A DNA stretch of 64,000 nucleotides from Bacillota bacterium (lineage in GTDB: Bacteria > Bacillota > Clostridia > Peptostreptococcales > Acidaminobacteraceae), in NCBI GenBank assembly GCA_025210655.1, contig JAOARG010000013.1:62001-126000 (forward strand). The letters run 5' to 3'. This document shows positions 856 to 60,667 of the stretch, one piece after another. The translations under genes were made by a program, and so were the position numbers. Position 1 is the stretch's first letter. Each line of letters starts with the position of its first letter. The notes under the pieces are model-generated. The model searched no databases, was not told where the DNA came from, and saw only the letters and a program-made list of their open reading frames with translations.

Positions 856-1262
856 ATAATAGTCGGGTGGTTAGTTTGCTGAAGCAAACGGTGGTTAGGT
901 GTTGGGAAGAGATATTAGGTGAACCGCACAAGATATTTCTTGTGCTAGGGGAATTCGTTTTGTAATCAAAACTAAGGGGAAGAGGAAGAACTAAAGATCT
1001 TTATAAAGCGATTTTAAAGATACTTGTTCTGCCTTTTCCCCTAATTTTATTTATAAAATTAATTCCCCCAGCACTGACGAAGTTCAGTGCGATTCCCCAT
1101 TTCCCCCTATACCCAACCACCACTTGACTAAGTCAAGTACACCACCACGAGTCCCAAAAGGACAAGTAAACCACCATTTCTGCCAATAGCAGAAATACAC
1201 CACCCATTTACACCCAAAACTCTAAATACTATAATATACTTATTAAAAGAAAGCAGGTAAAA
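845..1262. repeat. Nested-palindrome hairpin array A
   Basis: No gene is seen here. The region is a series of short perfect hairpins with unrelated stems: GTTTGCT/AGCAAAC (874-889), GCACAAGA/TCTTGTGC (926-945), GTTTTG/CAAAAC (957-972), a larger central one (AGGGGAA...TTCCCCT, about 974-1043), AATTTTAT/ATAAAATT (1044-1061), GCACTGA/TCAGTGC (1070-1089), ACTTGACT/AGTCAAGT (about 1123-1139) and ATTTCTGC/GCAGAAAT (about 1177-1197). Spacers on the left are G-rich (GGGTGGTTAG, GGTGGTTAGGTG, AGGGGAATT, AAGGGG) and those on the right are their complements (CCCCTA, AATTCCCCC, CCCAACCACCAC, ACACCACCA). The whole is thus one large imperfect palindrome with small palindromes set into both arms. See findings. 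Confidence 0.8.
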
Positions 1263-7128: not shown

Positions 7129-7519
7129 AAAAATCCGTGTGAGGATTTTTAGCTTAGCATACCTTTGGTATTTAGCCCAGTCGTTAGTTTTTTGAACTAA
7201 CTTGCCTAGCCAGAACTTGTAGTCACAGTTCTGAGCCCAGCGGGTTACCTTGTAACCCTGAGCATGGTTATTTCTCTTATGAGAAATTATATTTAAAAAG
7301 AAAACTAAGACCTTTAAGAACTTAAATAATCAAAGTTCTTAGAGGTCTTTAGTAATTTTTATTATAGTAATTTCTCGAAAGAGAAATATCGATTTACAAG
7401 CTTGTTATATAAGCAGCTGGGCTTGGAATTACGTCAGTTTATTCCAGCTGGGCGAATGAACCATGTGTATGACTGGGCGAGTTACTTAGGTAACGTCTAG
7501 GCAAAAACACTATAGTGTT
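7129..7519. repeat. Nested-palindrome hairpin array B
   Basis: A gene-free region between convergent genes. Hairpins in order: AAAAATCC/GGATTTTT (7129-7150), ATACC/GGTAT (7159-7171), GTTAGTT/AACTAAC (7183-7201), CAGAACT/AGTTCTG (about 7210-7232), GGGTTAC/GTAACCC (about 7242-7259), ATTTCTC/GAGAAAT (about 7267-7284), a central larger stem (CTAAGACCT...AGGTCTTTAG, about 7305-7353), ATTTCTC/GAGAAAT again (about 7370-7388), ACAAGCTTGT, TGGAAT/ATTCCA, GTTAC/GTAAC and AAAAACACTATAGTGTTTTT at the right edge. Left spacers read AGCTTAGC, TAGCCCAG, GCCTAGC, GAGCCCAG; right spacers are their complements CTGGGC (three times) and TCTAGGC. It therefore has the same architecture as array A with different sequence. 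Confidence 0.8.
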
Positions 7520-7522
7520 TTT

Positions 7523-12241: not shown

Positions 12242-12398
12242 TGGCATTCATTTAGGGGAAGCCGCTGAAAAAGTACCTATGGTTGATTCTTATCTACAAT
12301 ATGTTGGGTTCCATAGTTGAAAGAAAGATACATATTGTGGTATAAGAATTTCAAATAGGACTTTTTCAGCGGCCTGCATTTAGGGTGCCATTTTTTTG
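12242..12398 (+). terminator. Intrinsic terminator interrupted by a MITE-like insertion
   Basis: ATGGCA (12241-12246) and TGCCAT followed by seven T (12386 onward) would form the stem of a normal terminator for the cyclase gene with a loop TTCATTTAGGG. The MITE-like element sits inside that loop, flanked on both sides by CATTTAGGG (12249-12257 and 12377-12385). Confidence 0.65.
12261..12373. mobile_element. MITE-like element, copy 1
   Basis: A 113-bp element bounded by a perfect 14-bp terminal inverted repeat, GCCGCTGAAAAAGT / ACTTTTTCAGCGGC. It has no coding capacity. The interior matches copy 2 (19080-19190) closely, for example TATGTTGGGTT and GAAAGAAAGATACATATTG. A 9-base direct repeat CATTTAGGG flanks it, consistent with a target-site duplication. 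Confidence 0.8.
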
Positions 12399-16383: not shown

Positions 16384-16860
16384 TTTAGACCGTAGACAAA
16401 CTACAGTCTGGTTGAGTATTATGATGAATCATAACGTTAAGCGGTCATTTCATTCCTGTGAAGCGATGAATTTATCAATTCATTGTTAAGCAGTAATTCT
16501 TCGAATTACGTACAAGGTAATTTCCCTTAGGGGAAATACTTATATAAGAAAGAATTTAAATCATTAAAAACGAACCAATTTAATGGAATAATCTTGAAAA
16601 CCTTGCTATTACAAGCTTTGGAATTTTAGCTTGCGTAGCAAGGTTTCCTTGTTGACTAGGAAATTATATTTATAATTTCCTTCGGACAGGTTAAACAATC
16701 CCGCTGCGCGGGACCAGCAAATCCTTTCTTAAAAGGATTTGACTTTGTTCTACAGCGTTTAAAAAACGCCGCTTTACGTCTATGATAATAGATGCTTAAC
16801 GGTGCGAATGCACCTGCTTCACATATATTGAGATTCTCAATATATTGCTTAACACTTTTT
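16384..16860. repeat. Nested-palindrome hairpin array C
   Basis: A 477-bp gene-free stretch between convergent genes containing about a dozen hairpins: GACCGTAG/CTACAGTC (16388-16408, one mismatch), TTATGAT/ATCATAA (16419-16434), ATGAATT/AATTCAT (16466-16483), GTAATTC/GAATTAC (16493-16509), ATTTCCC/GGGAAAT (16520-16537), the central AAACCTTGCTA...TAGCAAGGTTT with an inner ACAAGCT/AGCTTG stem (16598-16646), GGAAATTATA/TATAATTTCC (16659-16680), TCCCGC/GCGGGA (16699-16713), AAATCCTTT/AAAGGATTT (16719-16740), GCGTTT/AAACGC (from 16755), GGTGC/GCACC and ATATATTGAG/CTCAATATAT. Left spacers GTTAAGCGG and GTTAAGCAG are complementary to right spacers GCTTAACG and TGCTTAAC. Confidence 0.8.
16649..16751. 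repeat. Dispersed 103-bp block, copy 1
   Basis: This block differs from 22833-22935 at only about 6 of 103 positions and holds three hairpins: GGAAATTATA/TATAATTTCC, TCCCGC/GCGGGA and AAATCCTTT/AAAGGATTT. A third, shorter and inverted relative is at 51090-51154. Confidence 0.9.
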
Positions 16861-18875: not shown

Positions 18876-18895
18876 TAAAATTATAAATATAATTT
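18876..18895. repeat. Stray copy of the AAATTATA hairpin
   Basis: AAAATTATAAATATAATTTC repeats the hairpin found within the two 103-bp blocks (there written on the other strand). It lies between the nucleoside hydrolase gene and its terminator. The rest of 18958-19079 shows only the sigma-54 promoter. Confidence 0.5.
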
Positions 18896-18913
18896 CCTAG
18901 TTAATTAAAAATT

Positions 18914-19079: not shown

Positions 19080-19190
19080 GCCACTGAAAAAGTATCTATA
19101 GTTGATTTTTATCTATAATATGTTGGGTTCTATACTTGAAAGAAAGATACATATTGTGGAAAGAATTTCAAATTGGACTTTTTCAGTGGC
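19080..19190. mobile_element. MITE-like element, copy 2
   Basis: A 111-bp copy with terminal inverted repeat GCCACTGAAAAAGT / ACTTTTTCAGTGGC. Compared with copy 1, the fourth base and its partner have both changed (G:C in copy 1, A:T in copy 2), so pairing is kept. It ends 22 bases before the MFS start codon and would be transcribed as part of the 5' leader from the sigma-54 promoter. Confidence 0.8.
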
Positions 19191-22802: not shown

Positions 22803-22952
22803 TAGGACACACGGCATTTAGCCGTGTGTTATTTGTTGACTAAGAAATTATATTTATAATTTCCTTCGAACAGGTTAAACAATCCCGCTGCACGGGACCA
22901 TCAAATCCTTTCTTAAAAGGAGTTGATTTTGTTCTTGTGTGCCAAGTATGGT
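22803..22952. repeat. Hairpin array D between convergent genes
   Basis: It begins with the terminator ACACACGGC-ATTTA-GCCGTGTGT (22807-22829), then the second copy of the 103-bp block (22833-22935) with its three hairpins, and ends with TTGTGTGCC, which can pair back with GGACACAC at the left edge. Confidence 0.75.
22833..22935. repeat. Dispersed 103-bp block, copy 2
   Basis: About 94% identical to 16649-16751. In the middle hairpin one stem base pair is lost (GCGGGA becomes ACGGGA); elsewhere the hairpins are kept. Confidence 0.9.
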
Positions 22953-30639: not shown

Positions 30640-31758
30640 TTACTTCATTTTAAATTTTTCACCTACATCTTTCAAGCTTTCTATATATGATTTGCTTAGT
30701 GGGGAAACTTTAATTACTTGACCGCCAATTTCTTCTGCAACTGTTTCAGCTTGGCTACTATCAAATTCTTCTTGATAAAAAATGTATTTGATATTTTCTG
30801 ATTTAGCAAGATCAATCACTTCTTTTAATCTTTTAATAGTAGCATCTTTTCCATTTTCTTCGATTGTAATAATATCGATACCGTAATCCCTAGCAAAATA
30901 TCCATATGCAGGATGATACATTATGATCTTTAAATCCTTGTGCTGTTCAAATATATTTGATAAATCATCATGTAAGGAGATTAGCTCTTTAATATACTCA
31001 TCTCCATTCGCCCTGTATATGTCCTTGTTGTCAGGATCAGCAATGCTCAATTCTTTTACCATTATATCAACAATTTCTGCAGCTATTTTTGGAGAGAGCC
31101 AAATGTGAGGATCTACACCGCTATGATCATGATCGTGGCGTGAATTATCAATCTCAACATGGTTATCTTCATGAATATCCTGGTCTTCGTGAGTGGCATG
31201 ATCTTCATGAGTGGCATGATCTTCATGAGTGGCATGATCTTCATGAGTATCATAATCTTCATGAGTGGCATGATCTTCATGAGTGGCATGATCTTCATGA
31301 GTGGCATGATCTTCATGAGTATCATGATCTTCATGAGTATCATGGTCTTCATGTACATCACCCTCATCATAGTGAATAGACATGTCAATCAAAGGAAATT
31401 TCTTTCCGATTTCATCCCTTAACATAACTACTTTCATATCACTATTTATATCTGAAATTTTTGGTATGATGTTATTTGTTTCAGAATTTACTCCCATGGC
31501 AAAGTATATTTTAGATTCAGAAAAATCAACCATTTCCTTAGGTGTTGGCTGATAATTTGAAGGACTATAACCTGGTGGTATCATCACAACTACATCTACA
31601 AGGTCTCCAGCTATTTTTTCGACAAACTCAGCCTCTGGGACAATTCCGACTGCTATTTTTAGTTTTTCTTTTTCAGCCTCTGTAGAAGCTGAATTTCCTC
31701 CACAGCCTACTAAAAGTATAAGAACTAATGCTGTACATAATAGTTTTAAATGCTTCAT
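30640..31758 (-). CDS. Zinc/manganese ABC-type substrate-binding lipoprotein with His-rich hexapeptide repeats (ZnuA/AdcA-like)
   Basis: A 372-residue lipoprotein of the cluster A-I metal-binding family. A lipobox LLVGCGG follows the signal helix. The N-lobe has FVEKIAGDLVDVVVMIPPG and the NYQPTPKEM motif; the C-lobe has DPHIWLSP, MYHPAYGYFARDYGI and YFYQEEFDSSQAETVAEEIG, supplying the metal-ligand His and Glu/Asp residues. Between the lobes lies a flexible loop of ten hexapeptides HED(H/Y/Q)(A/D)(T/I), which should bind or scavenge Zn2+. The ATG at 31758 is chosen because GGAGGAA overlaps the earlier in-frame ATG at 31773. No permease or ATPase gene is adjacent, so it is an orphan subunit. 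Confidence 0.92.
   Translation of the reverse strand: MKHLKLLCTALVLILLVGCGGNSASTEAEKEKLKIAVGIVPEAEFVEKIAGDLVDVVVMIPPGYSPSNYQPTPKEMVDFSESKIYFAMGVNSETNNIIPKISDINSDMKVVMLRDEIGKKFPLIDMSIHYDEGDVHEDHDTHEDHDTHEDHATHEDHATHEDHATHEDYDTHEDHATHEDHATHEDHATHEDQDIHEDNHVEIDNSRHDHDHSGVDPHIWLSPKIAAEIVDIMVKELSIADPDNKDIYRANGDEYIKELISLHDDLSNIFEQHKDLKIIMYHPAYGYFARDYGIDIITIEENGKDATIKRLKEVIDLAKSENIKYIFYQEEFDSSQAETVAEEIGGQVIKVSPLSKSYIESLKDVGEKFKMK
31180..31362. repeat. Tandem 18-bp repeat coding for the HEDHAT loop
   Basis: About ten tandem copies of GATCTTCATGAGTGGCAT-type units in the binding-protein gene. Several copies are identical at DNA level, implying recent slippage or recombination. Unit variants give HEDHDT, HEDHAT, HEDYDT and HEDQDI. 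Confidence 0.93.
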
Positions 31759-31884
31759 ATAAATTTCCTCCATTATTTAATATATATCACTTATACCATA
31801 ATATTGAATATAATAATCAAAAAAATAAAATGTACGTATACAAAATACAAATGTTCTATGTATACATGACGATGAATGAAAAAA

Positions 31885-51075: not shown

Positions 51076-51089
51076 TTGGATATAGCAAA

Positions 51090-51154
51090 GTTAAGTCCTT
51101 TAAATAAAGGATTTGACAGTCCCGTGAAGCGGTATTGTTTAACGAGTCAGAAGG
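51090..51154 (-). repeat. Inverted, diverged copy of the dispersed block (array E)
   Basis: Read on the minus strand it matches the second part of the 103-bp blocks (GTTAAACAAT, CCGCTTCACGGGA, GTCAAATCCTTT), about 80% identical over 65 bases. The AAATCCTTT/AAAGGA hairpin is kept; the CCCGC stem is weakened. It lies between convergent lsrB and the pilin gene. Confidence 0.8.
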
Positions 51155-51187
51155 AAAAGGGGAAGTCTATTAATGACTTCCCCTTTT
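51155..51187. terminator. Bidirectional terminator between lsrB and the pilin gene
   Basis: Perfect 13-bp stem AAAAGGGGAAGTC / GACTTCCCCTTTT with a TATTAAT loop; A-run and T-run serve both strands. Confidence 0.9.
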
Positions 51188-60395: not shown

Positions 60396-60563
60396 AGATT
60401 TAATAATAGGTAAGTGATGACTTGATTCTAGCATAGAACGGTATCTTAAAGCTTGTAGGGTAATATAATAATTTCGCTAGTTACAAGCTATTGACTTTTG
60501 ATGATAATAAAAATATAATTAACTTGGAATCAAGAAATGATTTCTAAAAAAATACACTTAATC
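60396..60563. other. Intergenic stretch with stem structures and thi promoter
   Basis: CTTGATTC (60421-60428) can pair with GAATCAAG (60527-60534), enclosing AGCTTGTA...TTACAAGCT (about 60450-60489). No gene is seen. The right part holds the thi promoter. Confidence 0.5.
60491..60519 (+). promoter_or_regulatory. Sigma-A promoter of the thi operon
   Basis: TTGACT (60491-60496), 17-base spacer, TATAAT (60514-60519), start near 60526, about 40 bases before the riboswitch. Confidence 0.75.
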
Positions 60564-60654
60564 TATGGGGAGCTTGTGGAATCAGGCTGAGAGTTCATCT
60601 ATCGCGATGATAACCCTTAAACCTGATTTGGATAATGCCAACGTAGGGAACTTA
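60564..60654 (+). ncRNA. TPP riboswitch aptamer (THI element)
   Basis: The conserved TPP-binding pieces appear in order: TATGGGGAGCTTG, GGCTGAGAG, ACCCTTAAACCTGAT, TTGGATAATGCCAACG and TAGGGAACTTA. P1 pairs the GGGGAGC side with the closing strand, and a variable P3 hairpin (TTCATCTATCGCGATGATAA) lies between. It controls cytX-thiM/E-thiD downstream. Confidence 0.95.
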
Positions 60655-60667
60655 TAATAATTAGTTT

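Follow-up and report, generated by a model that had tools for sequence, protein, structure and literature searches.

What are the long nested palindromes that stand between genes of this member of the Acidaminobacteraceae (Clostridia), and what keeps them there? Three such arrays, A, B, and C, lie in the window, that is, the whole stretch of 64,000 nucleotides that was analyzed, and the first-pass annotation had read array C (16384-16860) as one large imperfect palindrome with short hairpins along its arms and complementary spacers between the hairpins. Both features were borne out. We denoted this layout a "comb": short complementary spine pieces of two arms, with a hairpin rib between successive spine pieces.

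Comb architecture in the window

Arrays A, B, and C are real, with nested-palindrome structure beyond chance folding. Compared with 100 dinucleotide shuffles each, none of which folded as well, the MFE was -142.2 against a shuffle value of -80.8 for A (z = -11.2), -157.8 against -86.5 for B (z = -14.7), and -153.4 against -94.9 for C (z = -9.3). Both strands were folded and all three arrays form the structure from either one; the better-than-shuffled folding and the strand symmetry had been anticipated. Complementarity between left and right spine pieces lets either strand fold into a ribbed spine; alternatively, the duplex could extrude as a branched cruciform, as may also happen in vivo.

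Comb C (16387-16853, plus strand, GTTAAGC family), whose orientation was taken from its close copies, has convergent genes on either side, and all its parts are given here on the plus strand. The outer left hairpin, GACCGTAGACAAACTACAGTC (16388-16408), corresponds to the left element end in sister copies. It is followed by the left arm (16410-16517), with the spine pieces GGTTGAG (16410-16416), GTTAAGCGG (16436-16444), GTGAAGC (16458-16464), GTTAAGCAG (16485-16493), and GTACAAGG (16510-16517) and ribs between them. The right arm (16755-16853) likewise carries ribs between the spine pieces CGCTTTACG (16770-16778), GCTTAAC (16794-16800), GCTTCAC (16816-16822), and GCTTAAC (16847-16853), and its last three pieces are the complementary counterparts of the left set GTTGAG, GTTAAGCGG, GTGAAGC, GTTAAGCAG, and GTACAAGG. 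Between the arms lie a hairpin-forming segment of about 36 bp (16561-16596), present in the window copy and in one other (L003) and missing from the remaining C copies; the central hairpin, AACCTTGC...GCAAGGTT (16599-16645); and N99 (16652-16750), a 99-bp repeat with three hairpins that is inserted in C and whose empty site, CCTTG followed directly by TACAG, is seen in sister copies that lack it. The larger hairpin that had been placed at the middle of C is the center of the ancestral element, and N99 is a separate insertion beside it.

This anatomy bears on the proposal that the arrays grow by insertion of palindromes into a palindrome. It holds for N99 and the 36-bp segment, each found in only some of the C copies. 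Support is lacking, in contrast, for ribs as independent insertions: in every copy of a family the ribs stand at homologous positions, and their divergence is compensatory, such that ribs that are unrelated within one array, as had been observed, are homologous between copies of the family.

Comb A (865-1205, plus strand, GGTGGT/GGGGAAT family) is flanked by co-directional genes, and comb B (7151-7502, plus strand, GCCCAGC/GCTGGGC family) by convergent genes. The center of comb B, at about 7307-7349, is a terminator-like hairpin, and two more such hairpins, both unstranded, mark its left edge (AAAAATCC...GGATTTTT, 7129-7150) and its right edge (AAAAACAC...GTGTTTTT, 7503-7522). Apart from the combs, the window contains an 18-bp tandem repeat (31129-31380) within a minus-strand ORF (30640-31773) and a TPP riboswitch (60556-60667) preceding a gene whose product has hydroxyethylthiazole kinase and thiamine phosphate synthase domains.

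Copies, insertion sites, and relatives of the combs

Further examples, expected elsewhere in the genome, were found both by BLAST and by folding. In the 3.9-Mb genome itself, BLAST yielded 61 matches for C, 82 for A, and 16 for B; C had no match in 40 relatives. The B grammar GCCCAGC-rib-GCCCAGC-rib-GAGC recovered 34 half-elements in the same genome and none with the reversed control, and single matches in 2 of the 40 relatives that by eye are not hairpin-like. Half-elements of the B family recur at intervals along G000:C72:332-4270 and C15:32052-41572, a spacing suggesting duplicated gene-plus-comb units. Folding of intergenic regions was used for detection at large, a spine-word detector being too narrow, and in 1.66 Mb of the genome it identified 92 strict arrays with cut-offs on energy and loop count and three shuffles per region; some of the 92 are not combs, because relatives, too, pass comparable thresholds (the same detector flagged 13 of 146 regions there, and the five of these whose energy excess was greatest held no comb on reading). 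One common layout, with elements of about 250-480 bp, is shared by at least eight spine families: GTTAAGC, GCCCAGC, GTCTAGT, GACTAGT, TCTAGGG, GCCTAA, CTCGACAAGTC, and GGTGGT/GGGGAAT. The C family, of which 17 copies were aligned, consists of dispersed non-coding copies with similar length and ends, as in MITEs, and combs in general are numerous dispersed intergenic palindromes, as in REP/BIME.

The arrays had been described as lying mostly at convergent gene ends. With genes called by a simple longest-ORF rule, arrays occupy 27 of 137 convergent, 77 of 960 tandem, and 12 of 141 divergent junctions of the genome sample, that is, a roughly threefold enrichment at convergent over tandem junctions (odds ratio 2.8, p = 7e-5), whereas the majority of arrays lie elsewhere, two thirds of all arrays between co-directional genes. 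The count of four out of seven convergent junctions of the window with arrays or related blocks narrows in the same way. Only B and C are combs, since the two sites that we take to be the annotated blocks D and E, both at convergent junctions, are solo copies of N99, one behind a terminator-like hairpin (22833-22935, plus strand) and the other diverged (51086-51157, minus strand). An inverted N99 fragment is located at 18878-18911 (minus strand). N99 copies share one orientation, and about 12 of 17 solo sites, counted by eye, are directly 3' of a terminator-like hairpin. Head-to-tail tandem N99, repeating every 99 bp or so, was observed at G000:C50:74639-74833, at C70:14266-14462, and in L053.

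Terminators also flank part of the C family. In 4 of 9 close C copies, the host terminator hairpin is present on both sides, like a giant target-site duplication; the flanking copies are exact at C57:9103 (a 25-bp palindrome) and C71:34986 (20 bp) and approximate in L005 and L046. Terminator duplication is rare in arrays outside the C family and was not found as a general property of all arrays. A different, MITE-like repeat of about 112 bp, with terminal inverted repeats GCC(A/G)CTGAAAAAGT, has two copies in the window (12261-12373 and 19080-19190); the first appears inside a terminator hairpin, ATGGCA...TGCCAT, with CATTTAGGG flanking both sides, and a relative splits the second terminator copy at C71:34986.

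Combs are found in other Clostridia as well. A Clostridia metagenome-assembled genome from goat colon (L085) contains a comb with GAA/TTC spacers, and the pattern ATGAAAT-rib-ATGAAAT-rib-ATGAAAT has matches in 44 of 391 Clostridia genomes, about 16 of them with hairpin ribs on reading. The fetched gut loci are two-armed combs, many of which adjoin terminators and tRNA genes. Single arms of these gut combs match the Gut-1 model of Rfam (RF01706) above the gathering score (69.2 bits for L085 and 69.1 bits for L265); the window arrays gave no match to this covariance model. The description of Gut-1 (Weinberg et al. 2010, PMC2864571) is of a non-coding RNA, 77 nt long, that came from environmental sequences of the human gut; like the gut combs, it has three hairpins with UGAAAU spacers between them, and unlike the RNA so described, it is here one arm of a two-armed palindrome. 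The statement that no described element has this layout accordingly stands for the whole comb in everything searched and falls for the single gut-comb arm, which is Gut-1. Literature searches returned no paper on combs or on their link to PF05635. In the locus L146 (G000:C71:1-20000), a CRISPR-like array with the repeat GTATGTAGCTTAACTATGAGGAATTGAAAC, intergenic from 9131 and decaying towards one end, adjoins a comb-like region.

The reading to which we assign the highest probability, roughly 0.55, is that combs are DNA elements of a MITE-like kind with terminators as insertion sites, a PF05635 gene being linked to some of them, and with mobility and a role of the protein both putative. Insertion would take place beside an intrinsic terminator, sometimes with duplication of the whole terminator hairpin; termination would then survive on both sides, and we propose that the insertion therefore does little harm. 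The empty sites were read from sister copies within one genome, not from strains, and neither a transposition event nor an empty site at strain level was observed. A link of combs to a known transposase or reverse transcriptase was not found.

The PF05635 gene beside combs

The S23 protein, which is encoded in intervening sequences of 23S rRNA, belongs to the PF05635 family; these elements are regarded as selfish, and the role of the protein as unclear (PMC4990558). The genome encodes seven small four-helix-bundle proteins of this family, none of them in the window. Five of the seven loci have three or more strict hairpins in the 250 bp upstream, the threshold applied here, compared with 4.2% of 1412 genes (p = 3e-6), and by eye all seven genes lie in comb-like sequence of differing families, L278 and L280 being the weakest cases. 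In six of the seven, a GTATGC-N5-GCATAC hairpin precedes the ORF by 60-74 bp; the background of this motif is three occurrences in 1.66 Mb, one of which is itself at a PF05635 gene. Two of the genes are located between direct comb repeats with 83% and 91% identity (L284 and L281). Beyond this genome, upstream combs are present at 19 of 29 PF05635 loci, mostly from comb-chosen genomes, versus 6 of 258 control genes. Among 19 other Clostridia loci, hand-picked at middling scores from outside the comb-chosen genomes, five exceed the same threshold (p = 6e-5), and reading of these loci suggests nine combs, including new spines (AGCTAAAT and GTGATAT, for example). The p-values are descriptive, because the choice of thresholds and windows was made in sight of the same data.

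Strong as it is, the association covers only part of the family, because high-scoring PF05635 genes elsewhere are unlinked to combs (0 of 29 in the phylum and 1 of 27 top-scoring genes in the class). These counts rule out a general PF05635-comb linkage; the link holds in a subset of Clostridia. Given this restriction, a sizeable minority chance belongs to the view that the gene is a passenger and that the gene and the combs merely favor the same intergenic terminator sites: most combs have no PF05635 gene nearby, and both the gene and the combs adjoin terminators. Such a coincidence of preferences fits poorly with the gut loci, where the gene lies directly 3' of the comb in a fixed order next to many different spines, or with the direct repeats in comb-gene-comb order at L284 and L281. 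If combs are MITE-like elements linked to this gene, the PF05635 protein would be a candidate hairpin-binding factor that acts in their mobilization. PF05635 resembles Avd of the diversity-generating retroelements (PMC10053308), whose homing requires a hairpin or cruciform in the target DNA (PMC3240598), a parallel that is suggestive only.

DNA palindromes, RNA, and routes of dispersal

Covariation of the ribs was analyzed in the B and C families. For B rib 1, whose five outer pairs were read directly and not through a hairpin search, 30 distinct half-elements show Watson-Crick pairing in 27-28 of 30 cases at each pair, with 3-4 pair types, compared with shuffle control means of 9.6-21.3 and maxima of 18-26. 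B rib 2 is also perfect but is not independent evidence because the hairpin finder located it (24 of 30). In the C alignment, at least two Watson-Crick types occur at 25 of 94 pairs. If selection acted on an RNA, G-U pairs would be expected to persist and A-C to be kept out. Mismatches at paired positions of C comprise 29 G-T versus 36 A-C, whereas in terminators of the same genome the ratio is 26:8. The corresponding test on single-mismatch ribs is not strong, because the sense strand of tandem arrays gives G-T to A-C counts of 13:5 (p = 0.10) versus 3:7 in convergent and divergent arrays. The excess of sense over antisense folding in arrays (-16.4 kcal/mol) is near that of ordinary intergenic regions (-13.3). 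In gut combs, the ratio of pyrimidine-rich to purine-rich loops flips from 26:8 in left arms to 5:28 in right arms, and no sequence-conserved loop was found in combs.

The ribs thus covary, and neither G-U nor one of the strands is clearly preferred, so that the conserved object looks more like DNA than like one RNA; we infer that palindromic DNA is the thing that is kept, via selection or template-switch correction of palindromes, either of which would hold the DNA self-complementary as its sequence drifts. It is unlikely, in our assessment, that combs are functional RNAs (two-way terminators, 3'-end stabilizers, or Gut-1-like small RNAs) for which dispersal is secondary. Their position at gene ends with enrichment at convergent junctions, the terminator-like central hairpins of many arrays, the listing of Gut-1 as an RNA, and the G-T lean of tandem-array ribs are all compatible with RNA function, and the mismatch counts, the ordinary sense-strand advantage, the switch of loop types between arms, the absence of a conserved loop, and a comb (L273) whose two arms match Gut-1 on opposite strands speak against it. 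The G-U and A-C counts, folding energies, and loop polarity do not favor an RNA-only function, and the strand evidence likewise does not favor termination or RNA protection, both raised in the first-pass annotation, as the conserved function of combs.

The near-equality of G-T and A-C, together with covariation, fits a DNA-level process, as would the tandem N99 copies if combs were immobile structures that palindrome-specific mutation, through template switching and tandem duplication, creates and maintains and that ordinary recombination disperses. We consider this improbable in view of the many copies scattered over unrelated loci, the single orientation of N99 behind terminators, the terminators duplicated around C copies, and the PF05635 association across unrelated genera. 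That combs are REP/BIME-type elements moved by the RAYT (Y1) transposases of the genome is very improbable and was set aside: there are three Y1_Tnp genes, two of them RAYT-like in length (L216 and L217), but none is flanked by A, B, or C comb families, and the flanks carry other repeats, which in L216 and L217 are their own REP-type repeats, GGGGTCAGG..., distinct from combs. The third, L215, is a 176-aa Y1 transposase ORF with several flanking copies of another repeat, GACAAGAGCGACTTGAACTAGGGTCT..., possibly its substrate. A retroelement (group IIC intron or diversity-generating retroelement) was also ruled out, no reverse transcriptase match (PF00078, E 0.001) being detected in the genome, which is 93% complete.

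Returning to combs as MITE-like DNA elements, several known systems can be compared. Bacterial MITEs are, like combs, short, non-autonomous, palindromic, and present in many copies; combs differ by lacking a simple terminal inverted repeat and short target duplication, and what is duplicated at the target, in the cases observed, is an entire terminator hairpin. REP/BIME and RAYT-linked REPINs are dispersed non-coding hairpin repeats near gene 3' ends with a conserved REP head. Combs share with them the dispersal, non-coding nature, hairpin formation, and location near gene 3' ends, and are unlike them in having no conserved REP head, family-specific spine words, and a nested architecture, the RAYTs of this genome having other REPs of their own. 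The repetitive hairpin-forming and double-hairpin elements of mitochondria are similarly structurally divergent, possibly mobile, and invasive in intergenic DNA; they are organellar, however, have 1-2 hairpins each, and lack a ribbed spine, and their description names no linked gene (PMC2800124). Group IIC introns and diversity-generating retroelements, the latter with the PF05635-like Avd, target terminator-like or hairpin/cruciform DNA (PMC3240598, PMC10053308), as proposed for combs, and, unlike combs, both need reverse transcriptase. The 23S rRNA intervening sequences resemble combs in an ORF for a four-helix-bundle protein of the same Pfam family, long inverted repeats, a hairpin site, and the designation as selfish; unlike combs, they reside within 23S rRNA genes, possess a plain terminal stem, which in Coxiella measures about 28 bp, and are excised by RNase III (PMC4990558). 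Combs are intergenic and many-copy, with ribbed arms; the window arrays are flanked by protein-coding genes and lie outside any 23S rRNA gene, with no rRNA match within the window. A broader reading, which we hold to be doubtful, would unite combs and the PF05635 protein in an unrecognized class of mobile DNA that employs no known transposase or reverse transcriptase, recognizes hairpins, terminators among them, duplicates whole target palindromes, and includes the 23S rRNA intervening sequences.

If these readings are true, a group of Clostridia repeats has been overlooked or filed piecemeal as RNA (Gut-1), a context in DNA is found for the unexplained S23/four-helix-bundle protein, and the spread of 23S rRNA intervening sequences becomes testable. 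The duplicated terminators hint at insertion by a chemistry in which a palindrome is cut at both ends. In the comb families, compensatory evolution of DNA palindromes can be followed in nature, and they point the way to a type of selfish DNA that has hardly been studied.
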